Of a DNA stretch of 64,000 nucleotides, positions 20,592 through 35,826 are shown one piece after another (the first letter of the stretch is position 1; each line of letters starts with the position of its first letter). The notes under the pieces are model-generated. The model was not told the DNA's origin. It did no database searches and saw only the letters and a list, made by a program, of their open reading frames with translations. This DNA is from Jiangella ureilytica (GTDB lineage: Bacteria > Actinomycetota > Actinomycetes > Jiangellales > Jiangellaceae). The translations under genes and the position numbers were made by a program. The stretch lies in assembly GCF_004348545.1 (NCBI RefSeq), contig NZ_SMKL01000019.1, forward strand, positions 1-64,000. Reading direction: 5' to 3'.

Positions 20592-20737
20592 ATAAAGAAA
20601 CACCGGTGACATCGCTCTGTCAAGCCGTGGGCCGCTGACAACAAGGGAGTCCTTGACAAAACTTCTTGTCGGTAAGAGGCTGGAGAAGTACCGAGACAGC
20701 GCACGAGTGCCGATCAGCGGCAGGAGCGGAGTTCGCG

Positions 20738-21139
20738 ATGAGCACCAGGACCGTGGCCGAGAAGCTGCTGGTGAAGCCCGGCACGTCGGTGTGGGTGTCG
20801 CACCCGGACCGACGGGGGCTGCTGGATCCGCTGCCCGCCGACGTCCGGAGCGTGGACGGCCCGGCGGGCGCCGCAGTGGCGGTCGTCTTCGCCGACGGCG
20901 CGGCGTCGGTCCGCACCGTCCTCGAGCAGCACCGCGACACCGTGACGGCGCCGCCGGTGATCTGGATCGCCTACCCGAAAGGGGGCCGCGCGGACATCAA
21001 CCGCGACACGCTCTGGCCGATCGTCGCCGAGTTCGGCCTGCGCCCCAACGGCCAGGTCGCCATCGACGACGTGTGGTCGGCGCTGCGGTTCCGCGCGACC
21101 AAGCCGGGCGAGCCTCCGTTCACCGGCGGCGCGGAGTAG
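20738..21139 (+). CDS. Conserved small cytoplasmic protein of unknown function (DUF3052-like)
   Basis: A 133-residue protein without signal peptide or membrane segments, beginning MSTRTVAEKLLVKPGTSVWV. The pattern (KPG near the N-terminus, FADGAASVRTVLEQH in the middle, VIWIAYPKGGRADINRDTLW, then VAIDDVWSALRFR) recurs in small actinobacterial proteins of the DUF3052 type, whose role is unknown. CAGGAGCGGAG at 20721-20731 supports ATG 20738; a longer start at 20666 lacks a ribosome site. It is divergent from the sugar operon and a TTGACA sequence occurs at 20654-20659. Confidence 0.7.
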   Translation: MSTRTVAEKLLVKPGTSVWVSHPDRRGLLDPLPADVRSVDGPAGAAVAVVFADGAASVRTVLEQHRDTVTAPPVIWIAYPKGGRADINRDTLWPIVAEFGLRPNGQVAIDDVWSALRFRATKPGEPPFTGGAE

Positions 21140-21258
21140 CCCGTCACCGATCCGAGCGCCCGGGCCTGCCCATGATCAGGTTCTCTCGCGGTCGCTGACG
21201 CGCCGCCCACGCACATGATCACAACGGGGCAGGCCGGACGCGGCCGCCGACTCCGAGA

Positions 21259-21490
21259 GTCTTCACTGCCGCCGACGGTCTTCACTGCCGCCGACGGTCT
21301 TCACTATCGCCGACGGTCTTCACTGCCGCCGACGGTCTTCACTGCCGCCGACGGTGCCTCGCCCAGGAGCTCGCGGCTTCACTGCCGCCGACGGTCTTCA
21401 CTGCCGCCGACGGTGCCTCGCCCAGGAGCTCGCGGCTTCACTGCCGCCGACGGTCTTCACTGCCGCCGACCGTCTTCACTACCGCCGACC
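21259..21490 (+). repeat. 19-bp tandem repeat array with higher-order 59-bp period
   Basis: Ten units of GTCTTCACTGCCGCCGACG are arranged as five, two and three copies, separated by two identical 22-bp spacers at 21354-21375 and 21413-21434. The first unit after each spacer lacks one base. Units 3 and 10 carry ACTATCG or ACTACCG variants. Spacer plus two units gives a 59-bp higher-order repeat. The array lies between two converging genes. Confidence 0.9.
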
Positions 21491-21528
21491 GTCCTCGGAG
21501 CGCAGGAACGTCCGCCGAAGACTGCCTT

Positions 21529-21560
21529 CGATAGTGAAGACGACCGCTGGAAGTGAAGAC
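21529..21560 (-). repeat. Inverted copies of the 19-bp repeat core
   Basis: CGATAGTGAAGAC (21529-21541) is the exact reverse complement of the first 13 bases of the array's variant unit 3, and AGTGAAGAC recurs at 21552-21560. They could pair with array units in RNA to form stem-loops. Confidence 0.75.
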
Positions 21561-21583
21561 GTCCGCATGCCGGCCGGCGGGTG

Positions 21584-23272
21584 TCAGCGGCGGCGGAGCG
21601 AGGCCGAGAAGGCGTCAGCGGAGCGCGACGTCGTGGTCGTGGGGGCCGTGGCCGTGCGGCCGCGACCGCCGCGGCGGCCTCCCGTCGTCGTGCCGGTCGG
21701 GCTGGAGCCGGATCGGTCCTGGTGACCAGCCCCGGTGCGACCGTCGCGACCGGCCGAGGCGCCGGTACCGGCACCCCCACCGTCCGAGCCACGACCCGAG
21801 CGGCCGCCACGGCGGCGCGGTCGCCCGCGCCCGCCCGGCTCGCCGTCCGAACCCGAGCGCGAGCCCGAACCCGAGCGCGAGCCCGAGCCGCCCCCGCGAC
21901 CCCGCCGGCCGGCGGTGGCCGGCCCGGCAGGTACGACCGGAGCCGCGGCCGGGGTGACCAGCGGCGCGGCCGGCCCCGTCAGCGAGACGATGGCCGGGTG
22001 GCCGGGTGAGACTCGGGTGATCGCGGGCGTGATGCCCGCCTGCCGGGTCAAAGTGCGGACGTCGGCGGTCTGGTCGGGGGTCATGACGGTGACCACGACG
22101 CCGTCGGCGCCGGCGCGGGCGGTGCGGCCGGAGCGGTGGAGGTAGGCCTTGTGCTCTGCGGGCGGGTCGACGTGGACGACGAGGCCGATGTCGTCGACGT
22201 GGATGCCGCGGGCCGCGATGTCGGTGGCGACCAGCACGCGCGCCGTCCCCGCGGAGAAGGCGGCGAGGTTGCGCTCGCGGGCGCCCTGGCTGAGGTTGCC
22301 GTGCAGATCGACGGCGGGGATGCCGGCCGCCGTCAGGACGCGGGCCAGCTTCTTCGCGCCGTGCTTGGTGCGGGCGAACAGCAGCGTGCGCCCGAGCCCG
22401 GACGCCAGCTCGCGCACGATCAGCGCCTTGTCACCGGTCTCGACGGCCATGACGTGGTGGGTCATGGCGGAGACGCGTGCGACGGCGGGCGCGGTCGAGT
22501 GCATGACGGGCTTGGTGAGGTACCGCCGGACCAGGGTGTCGATGCCGTTGTCGAGCGTGGCCGAGAACAGCAGCCGCTGGCCGCCGCGCGGGGTCGCGTC
22601 GAGCAGGCGCCGGACCGCGGGCAGGAAGCCCAGGTCGGCCATGTGGTCGGCCTCGTCGAGCACGGTGACCTCGACGGCGCCGAGGTCGCAGTGGCGCTGG
22701 GCGATGAGGTCCTCGAGCCGGCCCGGGCAGGCGATGAGCACGTCGACGCCGGCGGACAGCGAGCGGACCTGCGGGCCCTGCCCGACGCCGCCGAAGATGG
22801 TGGCGACGCGCAGGCCGGTAGCCGCGGCGAGCGGCGCGACGGCGGCGGCGACCTGGTTGGCCAGCTCGCGGGTGGGGACGAGGATCAGCGCGCGCGGCCG
22901 CCGCGCCTGGCGCACGGCGCCCGAAGCGACCAGCCTGGCGATCGTCGGGACGGCGAACGCGATGGTCTTGCCGGAGCCGGTCTGGCCGCGTCCGAGCACG
23001 TCGCGGCCGGCCAGGGTGTCCGGCAGCGTCGCGGCCTGGATCGGGAACGGCGTGGTGACGCCCTCGGCGGCGAGGGCGGCGACGATGGCCGCGGGGACGC
23101 CGAGCTCGGCGAACGAGCGGTCGTCGTCGGCCGTGACGGTGTGGAGCTGTGCGAGCGTGGTGTCCGGCGCGACGGCCGGGTGTGTTGTCGTGGCCGAGGC
23201 GGCCGGACGGCGGGTGTTACGGGGGCGGCGGCGAGCGCCGTCGCCCCGAGACGTGCGGGTATCAGTGGGCAC
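21584..23272 (-). CDS. DEAD-box ATP-dependent RNA helicase
   Basis: A 562-residue protein. All helicase motifs are present: Q motif with FPIQ, GRGQTGSGKT (I), PTRELANQ (Ia), VLDEADHMADLGF (II), SATLD (III), VATDIAARGI (V) and HRSGRTARAG (VI). The C-terminal 110 residues are Gly/Arg/Ser-rich, likely an RNA-binding tail, and contain short DNA-level repeats at 21850-21895. GTG 23272 is preceded by GGAAGG at a proper distance; the frame stays open upstream but without coding character. The roughly 190-bp untranslated leader fits the autoregulated leaders of RhlE/CsdA-type genes. It is probably involved in ribosome assembly or RNA turnover in the cold. Confidence 0.92.
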   Translation of the reverse strand: MPTDTRTSRGDGARRRPRNTRRPAASATTTHPAVAPDTTLAQLHTVTADDDRSFAELGVPAAIVAALAAEGVTTPFPIQAATLPDTLAGRDVLGRGQTGSGKTIAFAVPTIARLVASGAVRQARRPRALILVPTRELANQVAAAVAPLAAATGLRVATIFGGVGQGPQVRSLSAGVDVLIACPGRLEDLIAQRHCDLGAVEVTVLDEADHMADLGFLPAVRRLLDATPRGGQRLLFSATLDNGIDTLVRRYLTKPVMHSTAPAVARVSAMTHHVMAVETGDKALIVRELASGLGRTLLFARTKHGAKKLARVLTAAGIPAVDLHGNLSQGARERNLAAFSAGTARVLVATDIAARGIHVDDIGLVVHVDPPAEHKAYLHRSGRTARAGADGVVVTVMTPDQTADVRTLTRQAGITPAITRVSPGHPAIVSLTGPAAPLVTPAAAPVVPAGPATAGRRGRGGGSGSRSGSGSRSGSDGEPGGRGRPRRRGGRSGRGSDGGGAGTGASAGRDGRTGAGHQDRSGSSPTGTTTGGRRGGRGRTATAPTTTTSRSADAFSASLRRR

Positions 23273-33318: not shown

Positions 33319-35826
33319 ATGAGCACCGAACCTGAACCGGACCACGAGACGCGCCCTGAGAAGGGCGCGCGCTATCGCGCCGGCCGCCGCAAGCGGACCG
33401 GCTGGCGGCGCGTATTCAACTGGAAGGTCTTCGGCTTCACGGCGCTCGGCATGCTCCTGCTGGGTGCGGGGGCCGTCGGCGTCGCGTTCGCCATGATCGA
33501 CGTGCCGGAGCCGAACGACTTCTCGACCTCCGAGACGAGCATCGTCTACTGGGACGACGGCGAGACCGAGCTCGGCCGGTTCAGCGCAGAGAACCGCGAG
33601 ATCGTCGGCATCGAGGAGATCCCGCAGACCCTCCAGCAGGCCGTCGTGGCCGCCGAGGACCGCAGCTTCTACGAGAACTCCGGCTTCTCGGCCACCGGCA
33701 TGATCCGGGCCGGCTGGGACGCCCTGCGCGGCTCGTCCAGCGGCGGCGGCGGGTCGACCATCACCCAGCAGTACGTCAAGAACTACTACCTGACGCAGGA
33801 CCGCTCCTACACCCGCAAGCTGCGCGAGCTCGTCATCTCGGTGAAGATCGACCAGGACGTCGACAAGGACCAGATCCTGGCCGACTACCTCAACACCATC
33901 TGGTTCGGCCGCGGCACCTACGGGGTGCAGACGGCGTCGCGCTCGTACTTCGGCGCCGACGTCGCCGACCTCGACCTCGCGCAAAGCGCCGCGCTGGCCG
34001 CGATCCTGCGTTCGCCCACGCGCTACGACCCCACCCTGGGTCCCGAGAACGCCGAGCGGTTCGCCCAGCGCTTCCAGTACGTGCTCGACGGCATGGTGGC
34101 CACGGGCGCCATCGACGAGGCCACCGCCGCCGACACCGTCGCGCCCGAGGTGCTGCCCGAGCAGCAGGTCAACCGGTACGGCGGGCCCAACGGCTACCTG
34201 CTCATGATGGTCCGCGACGAGCTGCTCGCCATGGGCTACGACGAGCAGGAGATCGAGACCGGCGGGCTGCGCGTCACCTCCACGTTCAGCGCGGTGGCGC
34301 AGACGGCCGCGCTGCGGGCCATCGAGGAGGAGCGCCCCACCGAGGACGCCGACGGCGTGCGCATCGGCCTCGCGGCGGTGCGGCCGGGCGACGGCGCCGT
34401 GGTGGCGGTCTACGGCGGGCCCGACGCCGTCGCGCAGAGCTACAACGACGCCGTCGACGCCATCCCGCAGGCCGGGTCGACGGTGAAGCCGTTCGTGCTG
34501 GCAGCGGGACTGGAGAACGGGTACTCGCTGCGCAGCCGGTTCTGGGGCAACTCGCCGTTCGACCCGCCGGAGCTCGGCCCGCCCGTCAACAACCAGGGCA
34601 ACCGCGACTACGGCCGCAACGTCACCCTCGAGCGCGCGATGGAGAACTCCATCAACACCGCGTTCGTCGACCTCGCCATGGAGTTGGGGCCCGAGACGGT
34701 CGTCGACTCGCTGGTGCGGGCCGGCTTCCCCGACGACGAGCAGCTGCAGGCCAACCTCAACCCCCGCGTCGCCATCGGCATCGGCGGTGTCTCGGCGCTG
34801 AACATGGCCAACTCCTACGCCACGCTCGCGTCCCAAGGCCTGCATGCCGGCACCTACACCGTCCGGCAGATCGTCGACCGCGACGGCGCCGTGGCGTTCG
34901 AGCACGAGGCCGCGCCCGAGCGGGTCTTCGAGGAGGACGTCACCCGCGACGTCACGTACTCGCTCACCGAGACCGTCGACGGCGGCACCGCCGAGGTCGC
35001 ACGAGACCTCGACCGCCCCGTCGCCGCGAAGACCGGAACGCACGACGACCTCACGGCCTGGTTCAGCGGGTACACCCCGCAGCTGGCCGCGTCCGTCGTC
35101 TACTTCCGCGGCGACGGCACCGAGTCGCTCGACGGCGTCGGCGGCATGGAGAGCTTCAGCGGCGGCGCCTACCCGGGCCGCACGTGGACGGCGTTCATGG
35201 AGGCCGCGCTCGAGGGGCAGCCCGAGGAGGAGTTCCCCGAGCCGGCGAACATCCGCGGCGAGAACGGCAACGACGGCGGCGGCGACGAGCGCCCCGAGCG
35301 GCCGAACCGGCCCGATGATGACGACGACGACGAGAACGACGGCGGCGAGCGCGGCGAGGAGAACGGCGGCGGGAACGGCGACGAGAACGGCGAGGAGAAC
35401 GGCGCCGAGCAGCCCGGCGGCGACGAGTCCGGCGCCACGGAGTCCGGCACCGAGACCGGTGGCGACGAGTCAGGCGGGGCCGAGCCTGGCACCGAGTGGG
35501 GCGGCGACGAGTCCGGCGCCACGGAGTCCGGCACCGAGACCGGCGGCGACGAGTCCGGCGCGACCGAGTCCGGCACTGACTCCGGAACCGACACCGGCGA
35601 CACCGGCGACACGTCGGGCGACACGGGCACCGACGCCGGGACCGACACCGGAGCCGAGGGCGGCGCCGAGTCCGGCACCGACGCGGGCGACGAGAGCGGC
35701 ACGACCGCTCCGGACAGCCGGGCGAGTCAGGCGGCGGTGCTGCTGCTCGGCGCCGGTGCGCTCACGGTGGGCGGGCTCAGCCGGCGCGGCGGGCCGCGCG
35801 CGTGGCTCAGCGGCCGGAGGCGATGA
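33319..35826 (+). CDS. Class A penicillin-binding protein (glycosyltransferase and transpeptidase) with acidic tail
   Basis: An 835-residue bifunctional peptidoglycan synthase. A basic cytoplasmic N-terminus and one transmembrane helix (about residues 38-60) precede the GT51 domain with AAEDRSFYE (catalytic Glu, about residue 112) and GGSTITQQYVKNYYL. The transpeptidase has SxxK (AGSTVKP, about 388), SxN (SIN, about 444) and KTG (571-573). A roughly 170-residue Gly/Asp/Glu/Ser/Thr-rich tail with repeated GGDESGATESGTETGG units follows, then a weak hydrophobic end. No PASTA domain. ATG 33319 is chosen over an Arg-rich upstream extension. Its 3' end overlaps the reductase gene by 20 bp. Confidence 0.9.
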   Translation: MSTEPEPDHETRPEKGARYRAGRRKRTGWRRVFNWKVFGFTALGMLLLGAGAVGVAFAMIDVPEPNDFSTSETSIVYWDDGETELGRFSAENREIVGIEEIPQTLQQAVVAAEDRSFYENSGFSATGMIRAGWDALRGSSSGGGGSTITQQYVKNYYLTQDRSYTRKLRELVISVKIDQDVDKDQILADYLNTIWFGRGTYGVQTASRSYFGADVADLDLAQSAALAAILRSPTRYDPTLGPENAERFAQRFQYVLDGMVATGAIDEATAADTVAPEVLPEQQVNRYGGPNGYLLMMVRDELLAMGYDEQEIETGGLRVTSTFSAVAQTAALRAIEEERPTEDADGVRIGLAAVRPGDGAVVAVYGGPDAVAQSYNDAVDAIPQAGSTVKPFVLAAGLENGYSLRSRFWGNSPFDPPELGPPVNNQGNRDYGRNVTLERAMENSINTAFVDLAMELGPETVVDSLVRAGFPDDEQLQANLNPRVAIGIGGVSALNMANSYATLASQGLHAGTYTVRQIVDRDGAVAFEHEAAPERVFEEDVTRDVTYSLTETVDGGTAEVARDLDRPVAAKTGTHDDLTAWFSGYTPQLAASVVYFRGDGTESLDGVGGMESFSGGAYPGRTWTAFMEAALEGQPEEEFPEPANIRGENGNDGGGDERPERPNRPDDDDDDENDGGERGEENGGGNGDENGEENGAEQPGGDESGATESGTETGGDESGGAEPGTEWGGDESGATESGTETGGDESGATESGTDSGTDTGDTGDTSGDTGTDAGTDTGAEGGAESGTDAGDESGTTAPDSRASQAAVLLLGAGALTVGGLSRRGGPRAWLSGRRR

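Follow-up and report, generated by a model that had tools for sequence, protein, structure and literature searches.

A tandem array in Jiangella ureilytica is the over-grown arm of a dispersed, REP-like intergenic element with putative protein-binding motifs

RAYT transposases are the usual explanation of REP-like repeats. The iteron arrays of replication origins consist of direct repeats of about 19-22 bp, with one binding site every two helical turns, and the ends of Mu or Tn7-like transposons carry several phased transposase sites each, the two ends being inverted. The REP and BIME literature describes GTAG- and CGTC-tagged REPs (PMC3733652, PMC2817692, PMC3116915) and REPs that are targets for insertion sequences (PMC1525189). 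Like REP and BIME, the elements described here are short palindromic intergenic repeats with many copies, a bias to gene 3' ends and inverted or clustered forms, and they too have insertion sequences inside or adjoining them, as reported for REPs (PMC1525189). Unlike REPs with a 20-40 bp stem and a GTAG or CGTC tag, they have several motifs at nearly fixed distances. In place of a single stem-loop with an end tag, we find dyads of several motifs that span 67-108 bp or more; in Jiangella, CGTC is internal to the units and does not form an end tag, and it is absent from the consensus of a second actinobacterial family. The elements share with iteron arrays the repeats of about 19-22 bp, or about two helical turns, but they have two facing arms round a centre, many copies per chromosome and, in the stretches examined, no rep gene beside them. 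Several phased sites, inverted ends and dispersed non-coding copies recall Mu or Tn7-like ends and MITEs; unlike transposon ends, the facing arms are separated by only some 14 or 4 bp, and no autonomous copy was found. A CRISPR-like array was rejected, the units occurring in both orientations around a dyad centre. In the parts of the literature covered by our search there was no earlier description of these elements.

The window analysed is a stretch of 64,000 nucleotides of J. ureilytica (source genome, G000; the Jiangella congeners are G001-G011). The array lies at 21259-21560, between a + strand gene ending at 21139, which has no Pfam match and converges on the helicase gene, and that DEAD-box helicase gene, on the - strand and ending at 21584. 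The initial annotation had counted ten units, two identical spacers and two inverted units between converging genes, and all of these were recovered. Full 19-bp units start at 21259, 21278, 21297, 21316, 21335, 21375, 21394, 21434, 21453 and 21472; compared by eye, five of the ten are exactly GTCTTCACTGCCGCCGACG and the other five have one or two mismatched positions. The inverted units occupy 21533-21541 and 21552-21560. The inner forward (21472) and inner reverse (21533) full units have starts 61 bp apart, as do most copies in the genome. The features are:

21259..21490, + strand: left arm, expanded, with ten full 19-bp units (GTCTTCACT plus 10 bp)
21318..21435, + strand: two exact 59-bp higher-order repeats
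21354..21374: 21-bp spacer, copy 1
21413..21433: 21-bp spacer, copy 2, identical to copy 1
21453..21560: 108-bp dyad core, fitting the family model at E 2.4e-21, this core being one of the 26 in the training set of that model
21491..21499, + strand: left arm, truncated inner unit GTCCTCGGA (family consensus GTCTTCTGC)
21500..21513: 14-bp centre, variable in sequence and nearly constant in length in elements of the 61 type
21514..21522, - strand: right arm, truncated inner unit GCCGAAGAC
21533..21560, - strand: right arm, a pair of full inverted units (AGTGAAGAC) at a spacing of 19 bp

The motif GTCTTCACT occurs 11 times in the window, ten of them within the array, where 0.10 occurrences are expected, and none of 100 shuffles reached 11. 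TRF scores are 265 for period 19 and 339 for period 59. The identity of the two 21-bp spacers follows from that of the 59-bp copies, 21318-21376 and 21377-21435, which match at 100%. Rather than a lone minisatellite, the array is the left arm, over-grown, of an element that is dispersed between genes. Local slippage is a plausible source of the left-arm growth with its 59-bp duplication, and the long arm at 21259-21490 would have formed by slippage or unequal exchange after insertion. Elsewhere in the window, repeats of 12, 15 and 42 bp form a long, probably coding array at 35388-35702, for which TRF scores reach 280. To the left of the 21259-21560 array, 21165-21236 is a REP-like palindrome with TGATCA ends, a part of which (21169-21221) has matches at dozens of places across Jiangella genomes; similar TGATCATC hairpins fill the same gap in G001, G007 and G010.

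The copies share a common anatomy: full units recur every 19 bp on the outside, a truncated unit GTCTTCTGC follows on the inside, and beyond a 14-bp centre the same order is mirrored, written as (GTCTTCACT-N10)n, inner GTCTTC, 14-bp centre, GAAGAC, (N10-AGTGAAGAC)m. A two-unit pattern (up to 3 mismatches) has 132 matches in the source genome, against 9 for the reversed control. Two sequence models were built: R1, from sequence only, with 26 cores (15 from G000 and 11 from G001), and R2, with 28 cores, 20 of them from G002, G009 and G010. R1 finds 16 full cores plus fragments in the source genome, which is probably an under-count, because several contigs (C32, C38, C35 and C144) end in or near an array. 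The number of units per arm varies in the source genome, and the copies of G001 mostly have two full units per arm. In contig C35, a dyad-bearing unit of about 480 bp is arranged in tandem (L041:1273-2233), with three dyads on this 6.9-kb contig. In a set of 98 units, extracted by phase from 11 stretches of arm in the source genome, G, C and CAC are nearly fixed in the 9-mer. The within-arm mismatch rate per position is 0.163 in the 9-mer versus 0.254 in the 10-bp rest, the latter being partly conserved, with positions 11, 12 and 19 as well conserved as the motif. The motif core is CTTC/GAAG and each species has its typical form: GTCTTCACT in G000 and mainly GTCTTCGAT or GTCCTCGAT in three congeners, with the triplet ACT in G000, ACT or AAT in G001, and GAT in G002, G009 and G010.

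The distribution of the family is patchy. Five of the 12 Jiangella genomes searched carry it, the source genome included, with 16 listed places in G000, 26 in G001, 15 in G002, 28 in G009 and 54 in G010, the last three counts coming from R2, which was trained mostly on those three genomes. The other seven gave no matches or marginal ones only (best E about 0.007). Across the class, 7 of 393 genomes match at E <= 1e-5 in a search with stricter filters, in which weak matches are lost: the five Jiangella and two of one genus in another family. Matches in Actinoplanes and Roseiflexaceae were not counted as family members, because the 24 stretches of the wider search that gave them are about chance level (some 30 expected in 257 billion bases for a pattern with 16 fixed and 2 two-way bases). 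A core of each group (Jiangella and the second family) had no match in plasmids, and the Jiangella core had none in phages. Viral contigs held no stretch with the two-unit pattern, and for the second family they gave one contig rich in CTTCAC and without the dyad. A phage or plasmid origin was rejected, there being no dyad in these searches.

The motif form in the second family is CTTCAC. Distances between CTTCAC/GTGAAG hexamers peak at 22, 41/42, 61 and 82, and a three-hexamer pattern, which fixes three hexamers per match and leaves the fourth free, is found at 18/19, 10/10 and 0/1 forward/reverse places in the three genomes of the genus. It has no match in two genomes of a sister genus, and its reversed control has none in all five. 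The 29 dyads around the fixed 22 are laid out as (19,20) in 15 cases and (20,19) in 13, one being without an exact outer hexamer. Same-strand spacings have their third peak at 21, and with these layouts this gives a directional order of five hexamers, 21-20-22-19; since the model and pattern searches favour known geometry, hexamer invariance is partly by construction.

The geometry of the Jiangella elements is nearly fixed. With the distance between the inner full-unit starts left free (35-85 bp, distances one unit larger being folded back by 19), 122 of 130 loci, gathered with models and patterns that favour the known geometry, gave a call and 8 gave none; 70 lie at 50-51 bp, 45 at 61-62, one at 53-59 and six elsewhere. 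In letter-shuffled copies of the same 130 loci the threshold was reached in 27, over many distances. R1, trained on 61-62 types only, found the 51 type too. By genome, the type is 61 in G000 and G001, 50/51 in G010, and both in G009 and G002. Since the two classes differ by about one helical turn and the motif spacing of 19-22 bp corresponds to about two, we favour a complex of proteins that all sit on the same helix face. Alternatively, a single old deletion, and not helical phasing, may have produced the two classes.

The elements are intergenic and biased to gene 3' ends. Using a simple codon-bias gene finder, 133 of 148 loci could be typed (9 were at contig edges and 6 had no core call): 67 are convergent, 53 tandem, 13 divergent and none inside genes. 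The 50 baseline junctions of the window comprise 8 convergent, 34 tandem and 8 divergent. An earlier run on 46 loci, with rougher element bounds, gave 25 convergent, 14 tandem and 2 divergent of 41 typed. Ten congeners could be read at least partly across the gap at the exact site of the array, and none of them showed the element (only part of the gap is covered in G003, G006 and G010, and the contig of G002 ends there); the gap is short and free of repeats in G004, G005, G008 and G011, and G001, G007, G009 and G010 have other hairpins. Six cross-species pairs of elements have both flanks homologous and eleven more have one, same-genome pairs and repeat modules being excluded. At shared sites the motif is of the type proper to each species, and copies can belong to different distance classes (61 in L040, 51 in L166). 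The motif change at shared sites is concerted, by co-evolution with a protein, replacement or conversion.

Y1_Tnp, the domain of RAYT (REP) transposases, was absent from all 17 genomes searched, unlike the situation in RAYT-mobilised REPs, and the same search was positive in 5 of 14 control genomes. Checking the neighbours within about 1 kb on each side found no binding protein or autonomous copy and no recurrent replication initiator gene. A partner gene beside the elements was rejected, since the recurrent neighbours are only insertion-sequence transposases and common families. At the window site the inverted arms are present, and no target-site duplication was recognised by eye against the congeners, the divergence being too high. 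Insertion sequences, labelled IS5-like and IS110-like on the strength of Pfam DDE_Tnp_1 and DEDD_Tnp_IS110, lie inside the G001 dyads L057, L060, L061 and L067, the IS5-like ones, by eye, at CTAG steps of units, and others adjoin several elements of G009; none was shown to move the family. The Rfam sRNA Ms_AS-4 has matches at L057:2968-3049 and L060:1320-1401, within an IS110-like transposase stretch, and may therefore partly describe insertion-sequence DNA. In G001, dyads also sit within non-coding mosaics of about 700 bp, which include inverted copies of another palindromic module, about 150 bp long (CCCCGTCCCCCTGCTGCC ... GGCAGCTATCAGGGGGACGGGG); parts of the mosaics are found in G000, G009 and G010 (L058:558-1220, L066:519-1184, L063:696-1450; L040:551-697).

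We give a probability of roughly 0.6 to the reading that the array is one member of a family of REP-like dyads, dispersed between genes, that are putative docking sites of a DNA-binding protein. Each motif would bind one subunit of a sequence-specific protein, which could assemble on one helix face, bridge the two arms and copy or move the element in trans in the manner of a transposase or recombinase. Points against a protein dyad are that no binding protein, target-site duplication or autonomous copy was found, that the 10-bp rest of the units is partly conserved too, that one deletion may account for the distance classes, and that single copies form very stable hairpins in silico, which a structured-RNA or cruciform reading also predicts. 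The core folds at -67.3 kcal/mol (z -8.2) on the minus strand and -48.6 (z -4.7) on the plus strand, so that the folding back of inverted copies proposed by the initial annotation is indeed seen in silico, and with single copies this stable a side effect on transcripts is likely. A structured RNA or bidirectional terminator would fold in both convergent transcripts and end transcription or protect mRNA ends, with arm length tuning stem length. The stable folds, the bias to convergent gene ends and the other hairpins in the same gap of some congeners agree with this, but the arms pair no more than in shuffles, either in Jiangella (76.8% of paired cells against 77.0 +/- 0.7%; 26 cores) or in the second family (84.4% against 84.4 +/- 0.5%; 28 of 29 dyads), and the RNAalifold covariation terms are +0.17 and -0.15 kcal/mol. 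As covariation is lacking in both groups, the mirror symmetry is better read as repeated binding motifs than as a maintained RNA stem, and a structured RNA with its pairing under selection is not supported. Nor did an alternative terminator in the usual sense find support, with no U-tract terminator in window positions 20600-22200; the elements have no Rfam match, and a hairpin needs neither nearly base-exact spacing nor a conserved motif. We regard the RNA or terminator reading as unlikely. The protein-binding iteron offered as the other option fared better: the short motif is conserved, its spacing is nearly fixed and the stems do not covary.

A chromosome-organising site, comparable to parS, matS or SlmA sites and bound at tens of places by a nucleoid or segregation protein, would suit the tens of dispersed copies per genome and the multi-site binding geometry. 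Strong matches in only five of the 12 Jiangella genomes are at odds with genus-wide conservation of the parS or matS kind, sites turn over between species, and insertion sequences disrupt copies in G001; we consider this quite improbable. A neutral minisatellite, that is, functionless slippage of a chance 19-bp repeat, appears very doubtful as well. The variable tandem unit number of the source genome's arms, as in minisatellites or VNTRs, the exact 59-bp duplication and the failure to see the array at its site in the congeners read all speak for it, but they leave the dyad core unexplained: the same dyad, its distances nearly fixed, is found again at numerous unrelated sites, both in five species and in a second family, and most G001 copies have two full units per arm. 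Neutrality had been proposed for an array absent from all relatives, whereas four congeners carry the family.

The best reading, judged from the sequences, is a REP-like, probably mobile, multi-site and putatively protein-binding dyad whose motif differs between species. More tentatively, and with somewhat less than even odds, it may represent an undescribed actinobacterial DNA-recognition system, in which a non-RAYT protein acts on dyads of fixed geometry, spreads or maintains them and co-evolves with them; such co-evolution would explain why most copies carry their own species' motif, even at shared sites. What is new is the family behind a real array, for which protein binding was the better of the two initial guesses. 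With one architecture shared by two actinobacterial families, such a system would be old or horizontally moved. A REP-like element without RAYT and with helically phased geometry, exact almost to the base pair, would offer a direct handle on a DNA-binding or mobilising protein, and its species-specific motifs one on the joint change of recognition motifs throughout a genome.
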